A stretch of DNA of 45,005 nt from positions 1 through 45,005 of IMG/VR virus record IMGVR_UViG_3300046371_000078; one strand, written 5' to 3'. This DNA comes from a virus. Positions within the stretch are counted from its first letter, which is position 1, and every line of letters begins with the position of its first letter. The translations under genes and the position numbers were made by a program. This document shows, in pieces, positions 5,321-45,005 of this stretch. The notes under the pieces were generated by a model that worked only from the letters and a program-made list of their open reading frames with translations, did not search any database and had not been told where the DNA came from.

Positions 5321-5753
5321 TAGAACAGCCGGTAAGTGGATACTTCCCCAGCCAGACAATATTATACAGGATGACGACTTTTTAAGTATTCCAAGAATAG
5401 CACGTACTATTCCATTTGGTTATAAAGAAGACCCTAACGATAATGATATGTTATTACCCGTACCAAGAGAATTACGGGCGTTAGAAAAAGCAAAAGATTA
5501 CTTGAAACAGTACAGTTATAGAGAAGTTGCAAACTGGCTAACTAAGCAGACAGATCGTAGCATCTCTCATATGGGTTTAAAGAAGCGTATAGATAGTGAG
5601 CAATCCCACAAAAGACGAAGTGCAACTCTCCGCGAATGGGCCAGAAGGTACGAAGCGGCGATCTCCAAAGCGGAAACCCTCGAAAGGTCGAGGCTCGGTG
5701 CAAGGAAGTCGAGGATCAACGAAGAAGAAGATCCAGACACAGCCGAACATTGA
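5310..5753 (+). CDS. HTH-like protein before the large terminase, 147 aa
   Basis: A 147-residue protein of uncertain role. It starts at ATG 5310, inside the end of the previous gene. Residues 70-95 (YSYREVANWLTKQ, then ISHMGLKKRI) read like a helix-turn-helix of the resolvase or terminase-small type. The rest is charged and helical and rich in Arg. The last 158 bases overlap in another frame with the long version of the large terminase. It could be a second DNA-recognition subunit for packaging; the alternative is a transcription factor. Confidence 0.65.
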   Translation: MTNNRTAGKWILPQPDNIIQDDDFLSIPRIARTIPFGYKEDPNDNDMLLPVPRELRALEKAKDYLKQYSYREVANWLTKQTDRSISHMGLKKRIDSEQSHKRRSATLREWARRYEAAISKAETLERSRLGARKSRINEEEDPDTAEH

Positions 5754-7206
5754 AGTGAAGGATGATCCTCAAGCTCCAGATGAGTTTGAGCCGATACGGC
5801 CTGAAGAAGAACACAACGTAATATTTAAACCGAATGCTGGCCCACAGACTGAGTTCTTGGCGGCAGGAGAACGGGAGGTTCTGTATGGAGGTGCCGCAGG
5901 CGGTGGCAAGTCTTATGCAATGTTGGCTGATCCGCTACGATTTATGGGTCATCCCTCTTTCAGTGGATTGCTACTACGACATACGAATGAGGAACTAAGA
6001 GAACTCGTTTGGAAATCTCAGGAGATGTATCCGAAGATCTGGCCCGGTATCAAATGGTCAGAGCGTAAGATGCAATGGACTGCCCCTAGTGGAGCTAGGC
6101 TGTGGTTCTCATACCTCGACAGGGACGATGATGTATTACGTTATCAAGGACAGGCATTTAGTTGGATAGGATTCGACGAATTAACACAGTGGCACACACC
6201 ATTCGCTTGGGACTATATGAGGTCTCGTTTGCGTAGTACAGCACCAGACTTACCAGTTTATATGCGAGCTACTACCAACCCCGGCGGAGCGGGACATGCT
6301 TGGGTGAAGAAGATGTTTATTGATCCTTCTCCACCGGGTAACTCGTTTAATGCAACAGATATTGAAAGCGGTAAGACATTGGCTTACCCAAAGGGGCATT
6401 CTAAAGAAGGCCAAGCATTGTTTAAACGCAAGTTTATACCTGCAATGCTAGTTGATAACCCTCATCTGTATGATCAGGGGGACTATGAAGCAATGCTCTT
6501 GTCTTTACCTGAGCATCAACGTAAACAGTTATTAGAGGGTAATTGGGATGTTGCGGAAGGTGCGGCGTTTCCTGAGTTTAACAGGCAAGTACATGTCATT
6601 GAGCCATTTGATATACCTAATAATTGGGTTAAATTCCGCGCTTGCGATTATGGTTATGGGTCCTATTCTGCTGTTGTTTGGATTGCCTGTTCTCCTGATG
6701 AACAGCTTATTGTTTATCGTGAGTTATACGTTAGTAAGGTCTTGGCGACTGATCTTGCGGATATGGTTCTGGATATGGAATCAACGGACGGAAACATTAA
6801 GTACGGAGTTTTGGACAGTTCGTGCTGGCATAAAAGGGGCGATACTGGGCCTTCGCTCGCTGAACAGATGATACAGAAAGGATGCCGGTGGAGACCCTCA
6901 GATAGATCTGCTGGCTCTCGTGTATCAGGTAAGAACGAACTACACCGTAGACTACAAGTGGACGAGTATTCAGAAGAACCACGATTAATATTCTTTAATA
7001 CTTGCACGAATTTAATTGCACAATTACCTATTATCCCACTGGACAAAAAGAATCCAGAAGATATTGATACGAAGTCAGAAGATCACCTGTATGACGCATT
7101 ACGTTATGGCATAATGTCCAGACCTCGTTTTTCAATTTGGGACTTTGATCCCTCTCACGAGCGAACTTCTAGTTTCGTGCCCGCAGACAATAAATTTGGA
7201 TATTAA
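5596..7206 (+). CDS. Terminase large subunit
   Basis: This is the ATP-driven motor and nuclease that pumps DNA into the prohead through the portal. From the GTG at 5596 (536 aa), Walker A GGAAGGGKS is at residues 98-106 and Walker B IGFDE at 191-195. The C-terminal nuclease region includes RACDYGYG near 348, GVLDSSCW near 400 and DHLYDALRYG near 500, the usual acidic residues of the RNase H-like fold. The start is uncertain: a GTG at 5755 gives 483 residues and places Walker A about 45 residues in, which fits the family better. The 5596 start would overlap the previous gene by 158 bases and add a very basic 53-residue N-terminus. The portal follows directly. Confidence 0.95.
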   Translation: MSNPTKDEVQLSANGPEGTKRRSPKRKPSKGRGSVQGSRGSTKKKIQTQPNIEVKDDPQAPDEFEPIRPEEEHNVIFKPNAGPQTEFLAAGEREVLYGGAAGGGKSYAMLADPLRFMGHPSFSGLLLRHTNEELRELVWKSQEMYPKIWPGIKWSERKMQWTAPSGARLWFSYLDRDDDVLRYQGQAFSWIGFDELTQWHTPFAWDYMRSRLRSTAPDLPVYMRATTNPGGAGHAWVKKMFIDPSPPGNSFNATDIESGKTLAYPKGHSKEGQALFKRKFIPAMLVDNPHLYDQGDYEAMLLSLPEHQRKQLLEGNWDVAEGAAFPEFNRQVHVIEPFDIPNNWVKFRACDYGYGSYSAVVWIACSPDEQLIVYRELYVSKVLATDLADMVLDMESTDGNIKYGVLDSSCWHKRGDTGPSLAEQMIQKGCRWRPSDRSAGSRVSGKNELHRRLQVDEYSEEPRLIFFNTCTNLIAQLPIIPLDKKNPEDIDTKSEDHLYDALRYGIMSRPRFSIWDFDPSHERTSSFVPADNKFGY

Positions 7207-34198: not shown

Positions 34199-34303
34199 TC
34201 AAATCTTACGCATCTGTCGTTTAAGATGTCTGATGACAGCCTCCATTTCCTTGATCTTCTTGTTAAGTTTTTCAAATTCTTGCTTAACTTGATCTTGGCT
34301 CAT
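34199..34303 (-). CDS. Coiled-coil peptide coupled to nrdB, 34 aa
   Basis: A 34-residue peptide whose ATG overlaps the nrdB stop (ATGA). It is a single amphipathic, coiled-coil helix of Lys, Glu, Ile and Leu (VKQEFEKLNKKIKEMEAVIR). The stop lies ten bases before promoter P6. Tight overlap and codon pattern favour a real gene. A role in NrdB folding or regulation can be imagined, but nothing shows it. Confidence 0.6.
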   Translation of the reverse strand: MSQDQVKQEFEKLNKKIKEMEAVIRHLKRQMRKI

Positions 34304-35262
34304 GCGGCTTGCCACCCCCAGTCATCACCTTCCATACCTGCGGCATTGTAATCTGTCACAACACCCTCAAAGAAATTCTTGTGAGAATCTCCTGCAACCA
34401 CCCAGTCAACCCATGGTAGTGGGTTCTCTTTGACTTTGTAGTTCCCTTTAAGTCCAAGCTGAATCAGTCGTCTGTCTGCGATGTACCTAATATATTTTTT
34501 AACTTCTTCTTCGCTGAGTCCTTCCAAGTCTCCCATCTCATACGCAAGTTCAATAACTTTGTCTTCAAGAGAGACTGCATCTCTGACCATTTGGTAGATA
34601 TCTGATTTAAATTCATCTGTTACAATCCTTGGGTGTTCCTCACAGAATGTGCGGAACAGTTTAGTCATACCCTCACAGTGCATCGTCTCATCACGAATGC
34701 TCCACTCGACAATCTCACACATGCCTCGCATCTTACCTGTGCGCTGGTAGTTGAGTAGCATTACGAATGCACTGAACAAACTCATGCCTTCATTGATTAC
34801 TGACCGGGCAACTGCCTTAGCTAGACCTGACTGTGTGTTCACATCAATGTCAGCCATGAACTCAATCTTGTCAGCCATCTGTTGGTACTCTAAGAATGCG
34901 GAGAACTCTTCTTCAGGCAGACCTAGTGTGTCATTAAGTAAAGCGTAAGAACGCTGATGCACAAATTCACGATTAGCAAAGCTAGTAAGCATAGCCCGTA
35001 TTTCGTTATTTTTAAATTTAGGTATGTAAGATTCCAAGTAGTTCGTTCCAACTTGGACATCCGACTGCGTAAAGAGTCTAAGGATCTGTGTAATATGGTT
35101 TCTTTCGACATCAGTTAACTTCCCATTGCTCCACTGCGCAACATCATCTTGCAGTTTAGCTTCCCATTCACCCCAGTGTACTTTCTCATGTGAGATAGCT
35201 TTTTCCACAGCCCATGGATATAGAAACGGCTTATAAGTCTTTGATTCTTCTAGCAATGGCAT
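34300..35262 (-). CDS. nrdB: Ribonucleotide reductase class I beta subunit
   Basis: A 320-residue radical-generating subunit that partners NrdA to turn ribonucleotides into deoxyribonucleotides for phage DNA. The ligand set of the di-metal site is complete: D68, E99, H102, E158, E192 and H195 (in REFVHQRSY, INEGMSLF and RDETMHCEG). Y106 takes the position of the E. coli radical Tyr122, so a Tyr-radical subclass is likely. The start ATG 35262 has GGAG about ten bases upstream. It is separated from nrdA by three small genes, a terminator-like hairpin and its own promoter (P5). Confidence 0.95.
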   Translation of the reverse strand: MPLLEESKTYKPFLYPWAVEKAISHEKVHWGEWEAKLQDDVAQWSNGKLTDVERNHITQILRLFTQSDVQVGTNYLESYIPKFKNNEIRAMLTSFANREFVHQRSYALLNDTLGLPEEEFSAFLEYQQMADKIEFMADIDVNTQSGLAKAVARSVINEGMSLFSAFVMLLNYQRTGKMRGMCEIVEWSIRDETMHCEGMTKLFRTFCEEHPRIVTDEFKSDIYQMVRDAVSLEDKVIELAYEMGDLEGLSEEEVKKYIRYIADRRLIQLGLKGNYKVKENPLPWVDWVVAGDSHKNFFEGVVTDYNAAGMEGDDWGWQAA

Positions 35263-35951: not shown

Positions 35952-37724
35952 CTACCCTTGGCATGAGATGCACTCATCCCCATCATCATCCGATGAGAAA
36001 TCCTTCAGTGCGTTACGTTCAACTGATGCACCCACTTTGTCAGCACTTACACCGGCATTGGTACGTAAGTAATATAATCCTTTAAGTCCTTCTTTCCACG
36101 CCTTGATATGTACGGAGTTGACGTATGACTTAGGTGATCCAGCAGGGAAGAATAGGTTCACTGACTGCCCTTGACAGATAAATTCCTGTCTCTTAGCCGC
36201 ATGTTCAACAACCCACGTTTGGTCCAATTCAAAGGCTGTCTTGAAAATGCCCTTCTCATGGTCACTGAGGAAGTCCAGATGCTGGACAGAGCCTTCGCTT
36301 GCAATGATCGTTTTCCATGTGCCTTCGGTATTCTCACCGTGCTCCTCCAGTACCTTCTCTAGTTCTTTGTTCTTAACCAGATGCGCACCTGCACGTGTTC
36401 TGTGTGTGTACGCATTCGACTTGATAGGCTCAATAGATGCTGAGCACCCACATATGATAGACGAGTTAGCATTCGGAGCAATCGCAAGTAGGTGAGCATT
36501 ACGCCGCCCTGTACCTGCCATATCCGGTGCTTCACCTCTTTCTTTGCCCATCTCATATGTAGACTCCAGTGCATCTTCTTTGATCTTCTTAAAGATCTGG
36601 TAGTTCTCACTAGCCGCTTGCCACGATTCCCATGCGATACCCTTATTCTGTAGGTAACCATGGAAGCCCATCGCACCTAAGCCGATGGACCGCTCCATGT
36701 ACGCGCTGAACTTGGCTCGCTCTAGCTCTTCCGGAGCATGTCTGATAAAGAATTTAAGGACGTTGTCCAAGAGTCTGACCAGATCCTGAACCATTCTGGT
36801 GTCTCGCCACTCGTCCCACTTTTCAATGTTGACTGAGGAGAGGCAACAGACTGCTGTACGTTCTTCAGATGTAGCGAGATGGATCTCATTGCACAGGTTA
36901 CTGCCATTAATTGTGAGTCCAAGTGCTCTTTGAGAATCCGGTAACCCTCGCTGGGCTGTGTCGATAAAGTTGAGGTAAGGGCTACCTGTTCTGAAGCGAG
37001 CTTCAAGTATTCTTTGCCACAACTCTCTAGCTTGGATTGTAGATCGGATAGCTCCTGAGTCAGGGCATCGTAGTTCCCATGTTTCTCCATTTTTTACTGC
37101 CTCCATAAAAGCATCTGTAATGTTAACTGCATTAAACAAGTTAAAGCATTTGCGGTTCGCATCACCACCAGTAGGATCTTTGAACCTGACGAACTCAATG
37201 ATCTCCGGATGAGACACATCAAGATATGCGGCATACGATCCCTTACGGGTCTTGCCTTGTTTGTAGGCTGTCATCTGTGAGTCAACAACCTTCATGAATG
37301 GGATCACTCCCGGTGCCTTGTCACTGACAGGACGTACATCAGACCAATGCCCACCTACGCCACCACCCTTTACGGATAGCCAAGCAACTTCAGCATTATG
37401 ACTGATGAGAGACTCAAGATTGTCACCAACATAAGTAAGAAAGCAAGAGATTGGCAATCCTTTTGGCTTAGCATCGTCAGTCGGTGCGTTTGAAAGCACA
37501 GGACTAGCGAACATAAACCAACGCTTGCTAGCATAATCATAAATACGCTGAGCGAACTCATAGTCACCCTCACAGTAAGCAACTGCCGCACGTGCGAATG
37601 CCTGCTGTGCATACAGTTCGTTATCCAACATGTAATAGTCTTTGAGCAGGGCCATCGCCTGATCAGACAGATCTTTATCTCTGTCGAGATCTAGGGTTAT
37701 TCCCTTGTATTTTGTAGAGTCCAC
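35952..37724 (-). CDS. nrdA: Ribonucleotide reductase class I alpha subunit
   Basis: A 590-residue catalytic subunit. Key residues are present: C94 (PISCFL), N276, C278 and E280 (SNLCNE), a Cys pair at 293-294 (AVCCLSS), the radical-transfer pair Y551-Y552 (LYYLRTNAG) and the C-terminal redox pair C585/C588 (CISC). It is shorter than the E. coli enzyme and begins directly with the core, so the N-terminal ATP-cone that senses dATP appears absent; the enzyme may escape that feedback. The start is GTG sharing its G with the TAG of the previous gene. Promoter P4 lies about 130 bases upstream. Confidence 0.95.
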   Translation of the reverse strand: MDSTKYKGITLDLDRDKDLSDQAMALLKDYYMLDNELYAQQAFARAAVAYCEGDYEFAQRIYDYASKRWFMFASPVLSNAPTDDAKPKGLPISCFLTYVGDNLESLISHNAEVAWLSVKGGGVGGHWSDVRPVSDKAPGVIPFMKVVDSQMTAYKQGKTRKGSYAAYLDVSHPEIIEFVRFKDPTGGDANRKCFNLFNAVNITDAFMEAVKNGETWELRCPDSGAIRSTIQARELWQRILEARFRTGSPYLNFIDTAQRGLPDSQRALGLTINGSNLCNEIHLATSEERTAVCCLSSVNIEKWDEWRDTRMVQDLVRLLDNVLKFFIRHAPEELERAKFSAYMERSIGLGAMGFHGYLQNKGIAWESWQAASENYQIFKKIKEDALESTYEMGKERGEAPDMAGTGRRNAHLLAIAPNANSSIICGCSASIEPIKSNAYTHRTRAGAHLVKNKELEKVLEEHGENTEGTWKTIIASEGSVQHLDFLSDHEKGIFKTAFELDQTWVVEHAAKRQEFICQGQSVNLFFPAGSPKSYVNSVHIKAWKEGLKGLYYLRTNAGVSADKVGASVERNALKDFSSDDDGDECISCQG

Positions 37725-40810: not shown

Positions 40811-42862
40811 TCAGACCTCCTGTTGCTCAAGCCAGTTTACACCAAGTTTAGCCTCTAATAAAAGGGGTACATTGAAATTTATTTTAAATTTATTGTCAAT
40901 GATTTCCTTCAGGTCACCATTAACTGACTCAATTACACCTATTACCTGTGCCTCTTCATCAGGATGTATGTCAATAACGATTGAGTCATGCACACTGTTC
41001 ACGATACATGATTGCATGTTAGCCATGCGTTTGTTTATCTCAATCAATATGACAGGAACAATGTCAGCAGTAGCGAATGACTGCACGGGATAGTTCTTAA
41101 TCGCTGTGAAGTTAGTCACTGTCCCATTCTTCCTACGCTTTGCATCTGGGAACGAGAACTGCCTGCCACTGGGTGTGGTGATCTTCTTGTAAGTAAGCAC
41201 TTCTTTGGCTAACTCTCTGTGCCATCTGGCGATACCTTTGTACTTCTCAGTGAAGTGTTCATAATACTTTGCTTCGGCAGGTGTTCTTCCATAGCCTGTT
41301 GCTCCGTAGAGAGGTGCAAATGTGTGTGCCTTCGCCTCCTGCCTGCTAGTTGCCTGACCCGCTTCCGAAATGACTTGTGCTGTGTATGAGTGGACATCAA
41401 AACCCTCCGTAACTTCTTTGATTGCTACCTCATCCTGCGACAGGTACGCCGCTACCCTGAACTCTAGCTGAGCGAAGTCAGCCTCCATGATCTTACCTCC
41501 TGCAAATCGGGAGATGAATACTCGTTTTACAGGAAATGTACCGCCACGCGGCATGTTCTGCATGTTAGGGTCACGCCCTGAGAACCTGCCTGTGGATGTC
41601 ATGTGCTGAGTAAGACGTACATGTAACTTACCGTCTGTCTTCAGGAAGCTCTTGATACCCTCGACAAAGCTGTTGAGATAAGTATCTACGGCACTCAGTC
41701 TACGTATCTTATATAGAAACTGGACAGCTTCATCCATGCCCTTACCTTTGGCAATACGTTCAAGATATTCTAAGTTTGTCTTGCTGGTACTGAATCCGTT
41801 AGCACTGTGCCACTTAGCTGTGGGAGGAGTGAACTTGAGTCCTGCAAGTTTAGGTAGCTCATTCAGCACATAACCTCTGCCTAAACATGTAGAGCATTTA
41901 CTTGAGTTTTTAAAGTCAGATCCATCTTTCTTCTTCTTGAAGTATGTACCGTTGCCCTTACACTCAGAACACTTCACTGCTTTAGTGCGCCTCACTGGAA
42001 CGCTTGACTCATTTATAAACCGTTTAAAGGCTGTAGGACTCATGTATGGATCAGCGTCATTGGCCCATTGCGTTTTGTTCAGTGGCCTACGTGAGTAGAT
42101 TACACAAGATAACTGTTCAGGTGAATTGAGGTTGACCGGAGTATCACCCATGAGTGATTGTACGTGCTCATTTAAATCACGTATAAGTGATAATTTCTCT
42201 TTCTCAAACTCATCGCGTACTTGCTCAAGTGCACCTGTGTCTACAGTAAATCCTGTCTGGTAGATCCTTGCCAGTAACACGCAGGTCTCCATGGTCAAAT
42301 CTACTACGTTGAGCATCTGCCTGTTGGCATCCTCCCTGTAGTCCACAGACTGGTCCCAGTACAACGATCTAGTTGCTTGAAGGTCAGCGTAAAGATATTC
42401 CTTTAGCTCCTCATACGGAATCTTATCTACTGTGTATCCCTGCTTGAGATATTCTTTTAGCGTGTCTTGCTTTTTGTAGTCTAGGTCACGCCTTTCAACA
42501 ACAGCTTCAAGTGACAGCGGCTGTTTGTTTCCTCTCTGTAACACGTACTCTGCCAACATGGTGTCCCAGACACTTCCATCATACTTAAAACCACACTCCC
42601 AAAGCCACAGCAAATCATGTGGTGCATTGTGTGCAATTAGTAAGGTTGTCTTATCTAACAGTGCCTGTATCTCTTCACAGTCACGCTTTCTGTATTCGTA
42701 TTTACAATCGTACTCGCTGTGATCAAAGGTGTAATGCTTTGGTTCACCGTCTTCCGGAAGAACACCTACCATGACCAAACTATTCTTTGGCTCATATGGA
42801 TCAAGATGTAACTTGCCATCTTTCTTTACTACTGTGTTCTCTACGTCAAGAATTAGTTTCAT
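40811..42862 (-). CDS. DNA polymerase, family A, with DnaJ-type zinc module
   Basis: A 683-residue replicative polymerase. The 3'-5' exonuclease has D6/E8 (LILDVENT), N79/D83 (HNAPHD) and Y156/D160. Polymerase motifs: A at 459-473 with D462 (EADFAQLEFR), B at 507-520 (R507, K511, Y519) and C at H625-D626. Residues 298-330 carry two CxxCxGxG units (CSECKGNG, CSTCLGRG), a half DnaJ central domain known from HMO-2011-type polymerases. The residue equivalent to E. coli 762 is F515. Motif C reads HDS rather than HDE. The start overlaps the endonuclease VII gene by 17 bases. Confidence 0.95.
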   Translation of the reverse strand: MKLILDVENTVVKKDGKLHLDPYEPKNSLVMVGVLPEDGEPKHYTFDHSEYDCKYEYRKRDCEEIQALLDKTTLLIAHNAPHDLLWLWECGFKYDGSVWDTMLAEYVLQRGNKQPLSLEAVVERRDLDYKKQDTLKEYLKQGYTVDKIPYEELKEYLYADLQATRSLYWDQSVDYREDANRQMLNVVDLTMETCVLLARIYQTGFTVDTGALEQVRDEFEKEKLSLIRDLNEHVQSLMGDTPVNLNSPEQLSCVIYSRRPLNKTQWANDADPYMSPTAFKRFINESSVPVRRTKAVKCSECKGNGTYFKKKKDGSDFKNSSKCSTCLGRGYVLNELPKLAGLKFTPPTAKWHSANGFSTSKTNLEYLERIAKGKGMDEAVQFLYKIRRLSAVDTYLNSFVEGIKSFLKTDGKLHVRLTQHMTSTGRFSGRDPNMQNMPRGGTFPVKRVFISRFAGGKIMEADFAQLEFRVAAYLSQDEVAIKEVTEGFDVHSYTAQVISEAGQATSRQEAKAHTFAPLYGATGYGRTPAEAKYYEHFTEKYKGIARWHRELAKEVLTYKKITTPSGRQFSFPDAKRRKNGTVTNFTAIKNYPVQSFATADIVPVILIEINKRMANMQSCIVNSVHDSIVIDIHPDEEAQVIGVIESVNGDLKEIIDNKFKINFNVPLLLEAKLGVNWLEQQEV

Positions 42863-43286
42863 GTTTGTGTGCCTCTAAATATATGACTGCACGTTTAATG
42901 CGTTCTACATTGTCTTTGAACGCACCTAGTCCTGAATTGCAATGATGGCATACCCAACCTCGGAATGTCTCTGTCTCATGGCAATGGTCTAGCACCCATT
43001 TCTGTAGTTTAGTTTGATTATGAATTGATATCTCATCCATATGCCTGTCACATATGGGGCAAGCATAATCTACATCCGGGTAATCATGTTGAGATTTTAG
43101 TCTATTGACTAAGGCAGAATGATTGCGACGACATGTGTTGCACATTCTTTTTATCTCACCTGAGATCATGATTTGGAACTGAGAGGATGGCTGGGCGATG
43201 GAACATTTATTACAAGTGATTGCATCTTCCCCGCAATACTCCTTCCCAAATCCAAACAGATCTTCCTGCATAAGGTCATACCTCAT
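42846..43286 (-). CDS. Recombination endonuclease VII family protein
   Basis: A 146-residue nuclease. CNKCS at 25-29 and CNTCRRNHSA near 48-57 form a zinc pair, and a second pair follows (CPICDRH near 76). The catalytic signature is WVLDHCHETETFRGWVCHHC, then NSGLGAF, of the endonuclease VII family, which uses a His-Me finger to cut Holliday junctions and mismatches. It overlaps the helicase end and the polymerase start, so it belongs to the replication operon. Together with endonuclease I the phage has two junction-cutting enzymes. Confidence 0.92.
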   Translation of the reverse strand: MRYDLMQEDLFGFGKEYCGEDAITCNKCSIAQPSSQFQIMISGEIKRMCNTCRRNHSALVNRLKSQHDYPDVDYACPICDRHMDEISIHNQTKLQKWVLDHCHETETFRGWVCHHCNSGLGAFKDNVERIKRAVIYLEAHKHETNS

Positions 43287-44487
43287 ATCGCCCGATGTAA
43301 TAGTTAAGGTTACAGGTTATTTTACCGTGCCATCCTGTTAGTTTATTCTTAGCAACATTAATATGTCTAGAGAAGCCATCGTCTTCCATGCCCTCGACTG
43401 GTAAGTCTTTAGCGATGAGTAGCATCAGGTCAGCTTCACTAGCCTTGCCCGTCTTACTGCCCTCCATCATGGATTGATTAAGAGTAGTACGACCCTCCGC
43501 TTCAGCACTCAACTGTGACATGTAGAAGATTGCACAGCCATACTCTTTGGCTATCTGTCGAGCATGAATAGCGCACAGCTTGAGACCTTCATGTGATTGA
43601 TCCGGCGCAAACTTATCGCCCATGTCAAGAATGACTACATCAGGATTGTAAGTCTTACACACCAACTCAACCCAGTGCATGGACTGTCCTGTTGCATCTT
43701 TAATCTTGATATTGTCTTTAAGTTTAGCCCACCGGGACTGAGCCTCACGTGGATTATCACGTATCTCACGCATGGTCATACCACTTGCCGCTGTTAAGTA
43801 ACGTGCGCCAACACGATGAGTTGCCTCTTCGTTACATAAGATCACACACTTAGCACCTTGTGAGGCAAAGCCATTCGGTCCAGCTACAATTGAAGCATGA
43901 AAGGATGTCTTACCTGTATTAGGTCTAGCCCCACCAACAATTAGGTGACCTGCGTTAACACCTTCCACGTTCTGTGAGAGGGTAGGTAAATTGAAGTGCC
44001 AGCGTGTTTCAAGATCATTCTTCTCAAGCAATGTCTGAATATCCAGATCATCCCACTCAATGTTTAAGTCAGGTAAGAAGTCATCACGATAGTTTTGCAT
44101 TAACTTACGCAATGGTTCCAATGATTCACCTATGCCATTAGCGTGTCGAACACCGATGTTTGCAATCTGCTTGCCTAGATACTTCTGGAATAACTTAGCA
44201 AGAATATCATTGGCTACGTCATTTCCTATTGGCTGTACCTTCCTGAGCTTATTGAAAGTATTTTTTAGTTCCTCTTCCTGTGACGTTGTCATGGAGGGAT
44301 CAGCCGCAATGTACAAGCCCTCGATCTCATCTACGGTAAGGTCACGATTGTACTTACACATAGCCTCATCAATCATTGTTTTAATCTTGCCTATGTCTTT
44401 AGTGAACAAGCGATGCGGGCACTTGTCACCTTTGTACTCATTGTAGAATTCTTTATTTAGTAGGCTCTTCAGTAGTGCCAGTTCCAT
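43276..44487 (-). CDS. DnaB-type replicative helicase (RecA-fold, SF4)
   Basis: From ATG 44487 (MELALLKSLL) with SD GGAGGT it has 403 residues; a longer in-frame start at 44520 lacks an SD. Walker A is GARPNTGKT at 186-194 and Walker B VVILDMGD at 284-291, with FYMSQLSAEAEGRT further on as the sensor-like loop. The N-terminal 180 residues are helical and no zinc or TOPRIM primase domain is seen, so primase activity must come from elsewhere. It forms a ring that unwinds DNA for the polymerase two genes downstream. Confidence 0.9.
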   Translation of the reverse strand: MELALLKSLLNKEFYNEYKGDKCPHRLFTKDIGKIKTMIDEAMCKYNRDLTVDEIEGLYIAADPSMTTSQEEELKNTFNKLRKVQPIGNDVANDILAKLFQKYLGKQIANIGVRHANGIGESLEPLRKLMQNYRDDFLPDLNIEWDDLDIQTLLEKNDLETRWHFNLPTLSQNVEGVNAGHLIVGGARPNTGKTSFHASIVAGPNGFASQGAKCVILCNEEATHRVGARYLTAASGMTMREIRDNPREAQSRWAKLKDNIKIKDATGQSMHWVELVCKTYNPDVVILDMGDKFAPDQSHEGLKLCAIHARQIAKEYGCAIFYMSQLSAEAEGRTTLNQSMMEGSKTGKASEADLMLLIAKDLPVEGMEDDGFSRHINVAKNKLTGWHGKITCNLNYYIGRYEV

Positions 44488-44626
44488 TCTTACCTCCAAA
44501 GATTCTGTCCCAGTTATCACGATACTTCCGTGTTGGAACTTTAGTTACAATTTCTTTTGGCTTCTCACGACTGTTGATCCAGTCTTGATTACGCTCATTC
44601 ATCTTGTCACGCCAGTGCTTACTCAT
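44453..44626 (-). CDS. Small Trp/Lys-rich protein, 57 aa
   Basis: A 57-residue protein (HWRDKMNERNQDWINSREKP, then RKYRDNWDRIFGG) of unknown function. The ATG at 44626 overlaps the cytochrome c stop (ATGA). The 3' end overlaps the helicase start by about 35 bases and contains its SD. The arrangement joins the cytochrome gene to the replication operon. Confidence 0.65.
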   Translation of the reverse strand: MSKHWRDKMNERNQDWINSREKPKEIVTKVPTRKYRDNWDRIFGGKNGTGTTEEPTK

Positions 44627-45005
44627 AAAGTCTCCACATAGTTTCCAATATCGCGCATGTCTTTTTTAGACATCCAACCTGCTTGACCCCACATAATATT
44701 ACTCATAGTTCCGATCGTATCACCATTCTTGTACTTGGCAAGTTTTGCTACAATCTGATCTGATGTTTGCCCAGATAATTGTGGACCCATACCACCGCTA
44801 CCATCAACACCATGACATGCGGCACACTGTGTGTAATGTTTGGCACCGATAGCAAATTCTGATGCTACCTCTTTCTTTTCAATTACCTTACGAAAACAGA
44901 ATGTGCCTCTATCTCCACAGATATTTGAGAATCCTAAACTACGATTCTCCCCCGCACCCAAATATGCAATTGAAGCACCTGTAGCCCCAAACAGTAAAAT
45001 AAACC
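44623..45005 (-). CDS. c-type cytochrome with N-terminal membrane or signal segment, cut by window edge
   Basis: The frame is open to the end of the window, so the true start lies outside. The visible part (127 residues) begins with a hydrophobic stretch (FILLFGATGASIAYLG), likely a signal peptide or anchor, followed by a spacer with extra Cys (NICGDRGTFC). The class I cytochrome c domain has the heme motif CAACH, then GGMGPQLSGQTSDQIVAKL, MSNIM as the probable distal Met ligand region and a C-terminal helix (KKDMRDIGNYVETL). It resembles c553/c4-type periplasmic electron carriers. Stop and next start overlap (ATGA). It is probably an auxiliary metabolic gene. Confidence 0.85.
   Translation of the reverse strand, partial: FILLFGATGASIAYLGAGENRSLGFSNICGDRGTFCFRKVIEKKEVASEFAIGAKHYTQCAACHGVDGSGGMGPQLSGQTSDQIVAKLAKYKNGDTIGTMSNIMWGQAGWMSKKDMRDIGNYVETL

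Follow-up and report, generated by a model that had tools for sequence, protein, structure and literature searches.

A predicted membrane-anchored cytochrome c encoded by an HMO-2011-type phage and by T4-like phages

We describe a small c-type cytochrome gene at one end of the virus record IMGVR_UViG_3300046371_000078, a linear contig of 45,005 bases that was analyzed whole (hereafter the window). The gene is almost certainly real and phage-borne, and its predicted product is very probably a heme protein: a small membrane-anchored monoheme cytochrome c in which a phage helix module appears to be fused to a c5/c553-like heme domain. The role that we consider most likely, with moderate confidence, is that of an electron carrier tethered to the membrane on its periplasmic side, which would serve host respiration while infection proceeds. 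The end of the window contains the following features, all on the minus strand:

44887..45003, minus: N-terminal phage module, comprising the rest of the membrane helix and the motif GENRSLGFSNICGDRGTFCFRK
44623..45003, minus: c-type cytochrome gene, 5' end missing (126 codons plus stop, open to the contig edge)
44626..44856, minus: predicted cytochrome c domain, monoheme, c5/c553-like (Pfam, PDB sequence matches, predicted fold)
44812..44826, minus: CAACH heme-attachment motif
44692..44694, minus: Met of NIMWGQA, likely second axial heme ligand (conserved; aligned with the bacterial Met)
44453..44626, minus: 57-codon ORF of no known family, which precedes the helicase in about 60 related loci
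43276..44487, minus: DnaB-type replicative helicase (likely start ATG at 44487, from which more distant relatives align)
42846..43286, minus: endonuclease VII-like gene
40811..42862, minus: family A DNA polymerase with a DnaJ-type zinc finger insert (HMO-2011-type mark)

The phage and its cytochrome gene

The window represents a phage of marine bacteria that belongs to the HMO-2011 type. The polymerase shares 63.5% identity with the one encoded by Puniceispirillum phage HMO-2011 and 53–61% with those of several Roseobacter CRP phages, which have genomes of 54–55 kb. A DnaJ-type insert in the family A polymerase is the defining mark of HMO-2011-type phages (PMC9038755); in the window polymerase, CSECKGNG and CSTCLGRG can both be read, and the insert matches PF00684 with an E-value of 1.4e-5 but with a score below the curated cut-off. 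The gene order in HMO-2011 and CRP-345 is integrase, primase, helicase, then polymerase. The window end reads cytochrome frame, 57-codon ORF, helicase, endonuclease VII, and polymerase, and the contig stops at the point where the primase side is expected to start. Of the HMO-2011-type core genes, the helicase and the polymerase were found, and the primase is expected in the missing part. Because the window is shorter than the genomes of the cultured relatives (45,005 bases vs. 53–55 kb), the record is judged incomplete at the cytochrome end, and approximately 10 kb of the phage genome is probably missing. Phage replication and structural genes are present throughout the contig, and we rejected the possibility that it is host DNA. 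No tRNA was found in the window. The two chains of a ribonucleotide reductase are encoded at 34300–35262 (small chain) and 35952–37724 (large chain), both on the minus strand, whereas in HMO-2011 a single adenosylcobalamin-dependent enzyme is annotated after the polymerase. Two 31-nt direct repeats (positions 7–37 and 254–284) are 77% identical, and the first copy contains TTGACA and TATAAC with a promoter-like 16-nt spacing.

Judged from complete copies in other phages, approximately seven codons of the cytochrome gene lie beyond the contig edge, and the frame covers the 3' 95% of the gene. The first-pass annotation had read in this frame a CAACH motif, a Met-ligand region, and an upstream hydrophobic segment; the motif and the segment are borne out, and the Met is a likely ligand. 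The frame matches Pfam Cytochrom_C with an E-value of 9.1e-10, above the curated cut-off and far beyond chance, and Cytochrome_CBB3 with a score just above its cut-off; its PDB matches by sequence are cytochromes c554, c552, c4, and c553. The CAACH motif (residues 67–71 of the complete protein) is kept in every copy that reaches this region. The Met of IMWGQA (Met111) is conserved in all complete viral copies and aligns with the Met of c554 and of bacterial relatives. Complete copies begin MKEVVIGFILMFGATGASIAYLG, and the hydrophobic stretch, cut by the contig edge in the window, spans residues 4–22. We built an AlphaFold model from 25 aligned sequences; the heme, which is absent from the model, would sit in a domain predicted with pLDDT values of about 85–95, while the first 53 residues are of low confidence and uninformative. 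The best Foldseek matches are the same small cytochromes (Vibrio c554, PDB 2zzs; TM 0.86 on the target). Of the marks of a class I c-type cytochrome, CXXCH is present in the sequence and the class I fold in the predicted model. Matches to NCBIfam models are all far under cut-off (SoxX: 21 of 61 bits), and no SoxD model matched.

The TGA of the cytochrome gene (44625–44623) overlaps the ATG of the 57-codon ORF (44626–44453) as ATGA, and the ORF in turn overlaps the helicase start. This arrangement had been put forward as an argument for a true phage gene and against host contamination; the overlaps are as described and the gene almost certainly does belong to the phage, but the coupling is weak evidence for it. 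In related phages, unrelated genes that precede the 57-aa ORF overlap it in the same way, so the ATGA is partly built into the ORF itself. In the approximately 60 loci that carry this ORF, the gap toward the primase is 0.7–2 kb where visible and holds varied small genes; the cytochrome domain is absent from all of them. The slot between primase and helicase that houses the cytochrome carries variable cargo, and the link of the gene to replication is one of place only. The proposed tie to replication genes thus stands as a statement about position, but T4-like phages have other neighbors for the same gene.

A phage module and relatives in T4-like phages

Scans of IMG/VR recovered six T4-like contigs (L002–L007) whose cytochromes are 87–93% identical in amino acid sequence to that of the window over the part that each holds. 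Four of them (L002–L005) contain the complete gene (133 aa), whereas in L006 and L007 a contig end truncates it. The six are closely related to one another, with flanks mostly 96–98% alike between their two groups, and the nearest named relatives of their T4-type RNase H are the Methylophilales phages Melnitz and cyanomyoviruses. A further T4-like contig, L318 (155,508 bases), encodes a 139-aa copy that is 75% identical over the heme domain. DNA similarity between the window and the T4-like contigs stops within the last codons of the cytochrome gene, which is followed by a tRNA-Arg in the T4-like contigs vs. the 57-aa ORF and helicase in the window. Such a boundary is as expected for a gene cassette in different surroundings. 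When L006 is compared with L007 and L003–L005, identity is about 98% in the upstream flanks but falls to about 87% across doxX and the cytochrome gene, a pattern suggestive of cassette exchange by recombination. Among 50,697 phage records, no relatives of the cytochrome, its N-terminal module, DoxX, or the 99-aa membrane protein were found.

Residues 1–46 of the cytochrome consist of one membrane helix and the motif RSLGFSNICG..FC. A stand-alone gene of 47–48 aa encodes this module in 17 contigs, all of the HMO-2011 type and each also encoding a helicase, primase, integrase, or polymerase of that type. In 12 of the 17, the module gene lies upstream of the helicase without an intervening integrase or primase (a primase is visible beyond it in four of these 12), so the window has its cytochrome at the position that, in related phages, is taken by the N-terminal half alone. 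A pattern scan of bacterial genomes revealed no relatives of the module, which occurs here only in viral contigs. On this sequence comparison, the window cytochrome is a fusion of a phage-specific helix module and a heme domain. The simplest history is that the module and a bacterial heme domain were fused and then exchanged among phage lineages, in either direction. A search of relatives for the same neighbor order gave a divided answer: the module recurs in HMO-2011-type contigs, but the cytochrome domain was found in no other contig of that type.

In nine contigs, the module gene directly follows a gene for a membrane protein of approximately 100 amino acids, with about 4 nt between the open frames; in L049 the order is membrane protein, module, another small gene, 57-aa ORF, and helicase. 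In the T4-like contigs, a gene for a relative of this membrane protein precedes the DoxX and cytochrome genes, and in L318 such a gene likewise lies on the upstream side of the cytochrome gene. The protein belongs to no known family (L002, 5240–5536; L235, 3656–3994; L049, 376–714), and both phage lineages encode it in the company of the module, DoxX, or the cytochrome. Other small membrane proteins, which end in LHIVTCL.IITGN.R.LGFW (PHROG 1679), are also found near DoxX or the cytochrome (L318, 5306–5461; L288, 2479–2649; L267, 4393–4575), and their ending resembles the ENRSLGF part of the module.

We estimated selection by the Nei-Gojobori method from three short sequences, so that the ratios are rough. 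Between the window and L002, dN is 0.054 and dS is 1.09 (ratio 0.05); between the window and L003, they are 0.076 and 1.12 (ratio about 0.07). Silent sites near saturation together with a low dN indicate that the gene has long been kept functional in both lineages. In the manner of an auxiliary metabolic gene, it is a host-like gene kept in phages under selection (dN/dS about 0.05 to 0.07). The module and the heme domain, compared between the window and the T4-like copies, are under comparably strong purifying selection (dN/dS 0.02–0.07). The strength of selection on both halves, along with the retention of CAACH and Met, speaks against the idea that the module is the functional part, e.g., in exclusion or lysis timing, and the heme domain its accessory; the module does occur alone in the 17 contigs, yet we regard this idea as very unlikely.

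Could the cytochrome end have come from a T4-like phage or a bacterium and been misjoined to an HMO-2011-type contig? The gene lies at the contig edge, its nearest full copies are in T4-like phages, and we found no second contig with the cytochrome-helicase junction (a pattern scan for the junction gave two chance matches). However, a random misjoin would be unlikely to fall just where the homology stops, in the last codons of the gene, and the module recurs as a gene in this slot of HMO-2011-type phages and has no relative in the bacterial scan. Moreover, over the approximately 120 nt compared, the silent sites of the window module are closer to those of the HMO-2011-type contig L156 (dS 0.42) than to those of a T4-like copy (dS 0.92). 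The T4-like relatives, the module in the same slot, and the purifying selection make misassembly or host contamination unlikely, and we consider a chimera highly improbable.

The best bacterial heme domains found are 47–50% identical; they belong to a single gammaproteobacterial order, and close copies are present in 58 of 63 genomes of that order. In a sample of 385 alphaproteobacterial genomes, the matches are weak (best E-value 1e-6, 35% identity). The heme domain is of bacterial, probably gammaproteobacterial, ancestry. When genomes were scanned with the whole-protein alignment, the patterns landed in the phage module and hence brought up no bacterial relative; a genome scan with the heme domain returned distant cytochromes only.

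Respiratory neighbors and a proposed role

In L002–L007, a DoxX gene lies directly upstream of the cytochrome, at a distance of about 0.1 kb. In L318, a gene for an SdhB-like iron-sulfur protein (5634–6338) lies about 0.4 kb downstream of it. A serine hydroxymethyltransferase gene occurs together with these two genes in L318, and C48C1, likewise a large T4-like phage (Kyanoviridae, OQ984149), encodes at 43111–43818 a protein annotated as hypothetical that is 80% identical to the SdhB-like protein. The latter resembles gammaproteobacterial proteins (up to 77%) and has no alphaproteobacterial match at the strict threshold used. The gammaproteobacterial likeness of this protein and of the heme domain hints at gammaproteobacterial hosts for those phages; the cultured relatives of the window (HMO-2011, CRP phages) infect Alphaproteobacteria. 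Neither DoxX nor the SdhB-like gene was found in the window, where the region upstream of the cytochrome is missing.

DoxX genes are present in 64 marine viral contigs (L250–L313; e.g., L291, 3992–4770; L267, 3522–4369; L285, 4001–4779). An electron carrier is encoded near DoxX in 25 of the 64 contigs, or nine of 27 clusters at 90% identity; in the other 18 clusters it is absent within the available DNA. The carriers are c5-like cytochromes (n = 6), c2-like cytochromes (n = 6), and cupredoxins (n = 13). The c2-like cytochromes have a signal-like N-terminus, and their ATG overlaps or abuts the DoxX stop. The cupredoxins are pseudoazurin-like, ten of them encoded directly upstream of DoxX and three within 2.3 kb. 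No match to profiles of these cupredoxins and c2 proteins turned up when the window and other viral loci were scanned. The swapping of carrier types beside the same membrane protein suggests, by association, that electron transfer is their shared job.

In the mechanism that we propose, the host would export the protein and mature it with its cytochrome c machinery, so that the heme domain would lie in the periplasm, and the cytochrome would carry electrons from host quinol-oxidizing enzymes to a terminal oxidase. Respiration and proton motive force might then hold up during infection, as the neighbors of the cytochrome gene, and of the DoxX gene beside it, in other marine phages lead us to suppose. 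By the positive-inside rule, the positive charges that follow the helix would favor a topology opposite to a periplasmic heme domain. The DoxX and SdhB-like neighbors in other phages make the upkeep of respiration more likely, and the position of sister genes beside respiration genes in unrelated marine phages suggests that several phages may tap or support the host respiratory chain.

Two other roles were weighed. The cytochrome could act with DoxX to feed electrons from sulfur or another reduced substrate into the chain and not serve as a bc1-oxidase link. DoxX adjoins the cytochrome in the T4-like phages and is a relative of DoxD/DoxA of thiosulfate:quinone oxidoreductase, and phage soxC, soxD, and soxYZ are known (PMC8190135). 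However, the phage DoxX has a generic DoxX domain only, no sox (including soxC) or dsr genes were recognized in the neighborhoods examined, and in L318 the companion is the SdhB-like gene, with DoxX not nearby; we judge donor oxidation to be unlikely. It is similarly doubtful that the cytochrome is a redox-stress or takeover factor, which would scavenge peroxide or NO or would block or divert the host chain. Mycobacterial DoxX proteins take part in oxidative-stress complexes, and in L257 an AhpC-type peroxiredoxin gene precedes DoxX; against this, the property that the c5-like, c2-like, and cupredoxin neighbors of DoxX have in common is one-electron transfer. Returning to the respiratory carrier, we offer a broader hypothesis tentatively, as a possibility that we hold with less than even confidence. 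At least two unrelated marine phage lineages might share a mobile respiratory module, made of a DoxX-type or SdhB-like protein and an interchangeable periplasmic one-electron carrier (anchored c5-like, c2-like, or pseudoazurin-like cupredoxin), that sustains or rewires the host aerobic chain; the window would be its HMO-2011-type member on a phage-specific anchor.

Known systems

The bacterial c5/c553/c554 type, exemplified by Vibrio parahaemolyticus c554 (PDB 2zzs), has the same single CXXCH, C-terminal Met, and predicted fold as the phage protein. The bacterial copies examined have a signal peptide-like or lipoprotein-like N-terminus and lack the phage module, whereas the phage protein has a helix module found here only in viral contigs. 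Bacterial membrane-anchored carriers of the cytochrome c-y type combine an N-terminal anchor with a class I heme domain; the comparison with the window protein is one of working principle only.

The nearest known cases are phage plastocyanin, phage SoxD, and a claimed viral oxidase. Phage SoxD forms part of sulfane dehydrogenase, and one or both heme motifs are missing from the copies reported (PMC8190135); a viral cbb3 oxidase subunit has been claimed from virome reads (PMC3474794). Both are reports of cytochrome or oxidase genes in viral sequence, but a small anchored carrier is not among them. The paper on HMO-2011-type phages (PMC9038755) does not mention a cytochrome in its main text, and in the openly accessible journal literature we found no published phage cytochrome of such a design.

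Phage support of photosynthetic electron flow is well known, whereas hardly any phage genes for carriers in heterotroph respiration have been documented. A compact cytochrome on a phage-specific anchor, common to phage lineages and under strong selection, offers a small protein with which to test respiration upkeep, and the pairing of DoxX with carriers offers a set of parallel cases for phage upkeep of the respiratory chain. Cyanophage plastocyanin (petE, PHROG 515) is likewise a small phage electron carrier, thought to maintain electron flow in infection, but it is a copper protein of phages with photosynthetic hosts, whereas the window encodes a predicted heme protein and belongs to a phage group known from heterotrophs. 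A cupredoxin beside phage DoxX matches PHROG 515 with an E-value of 7e-6.
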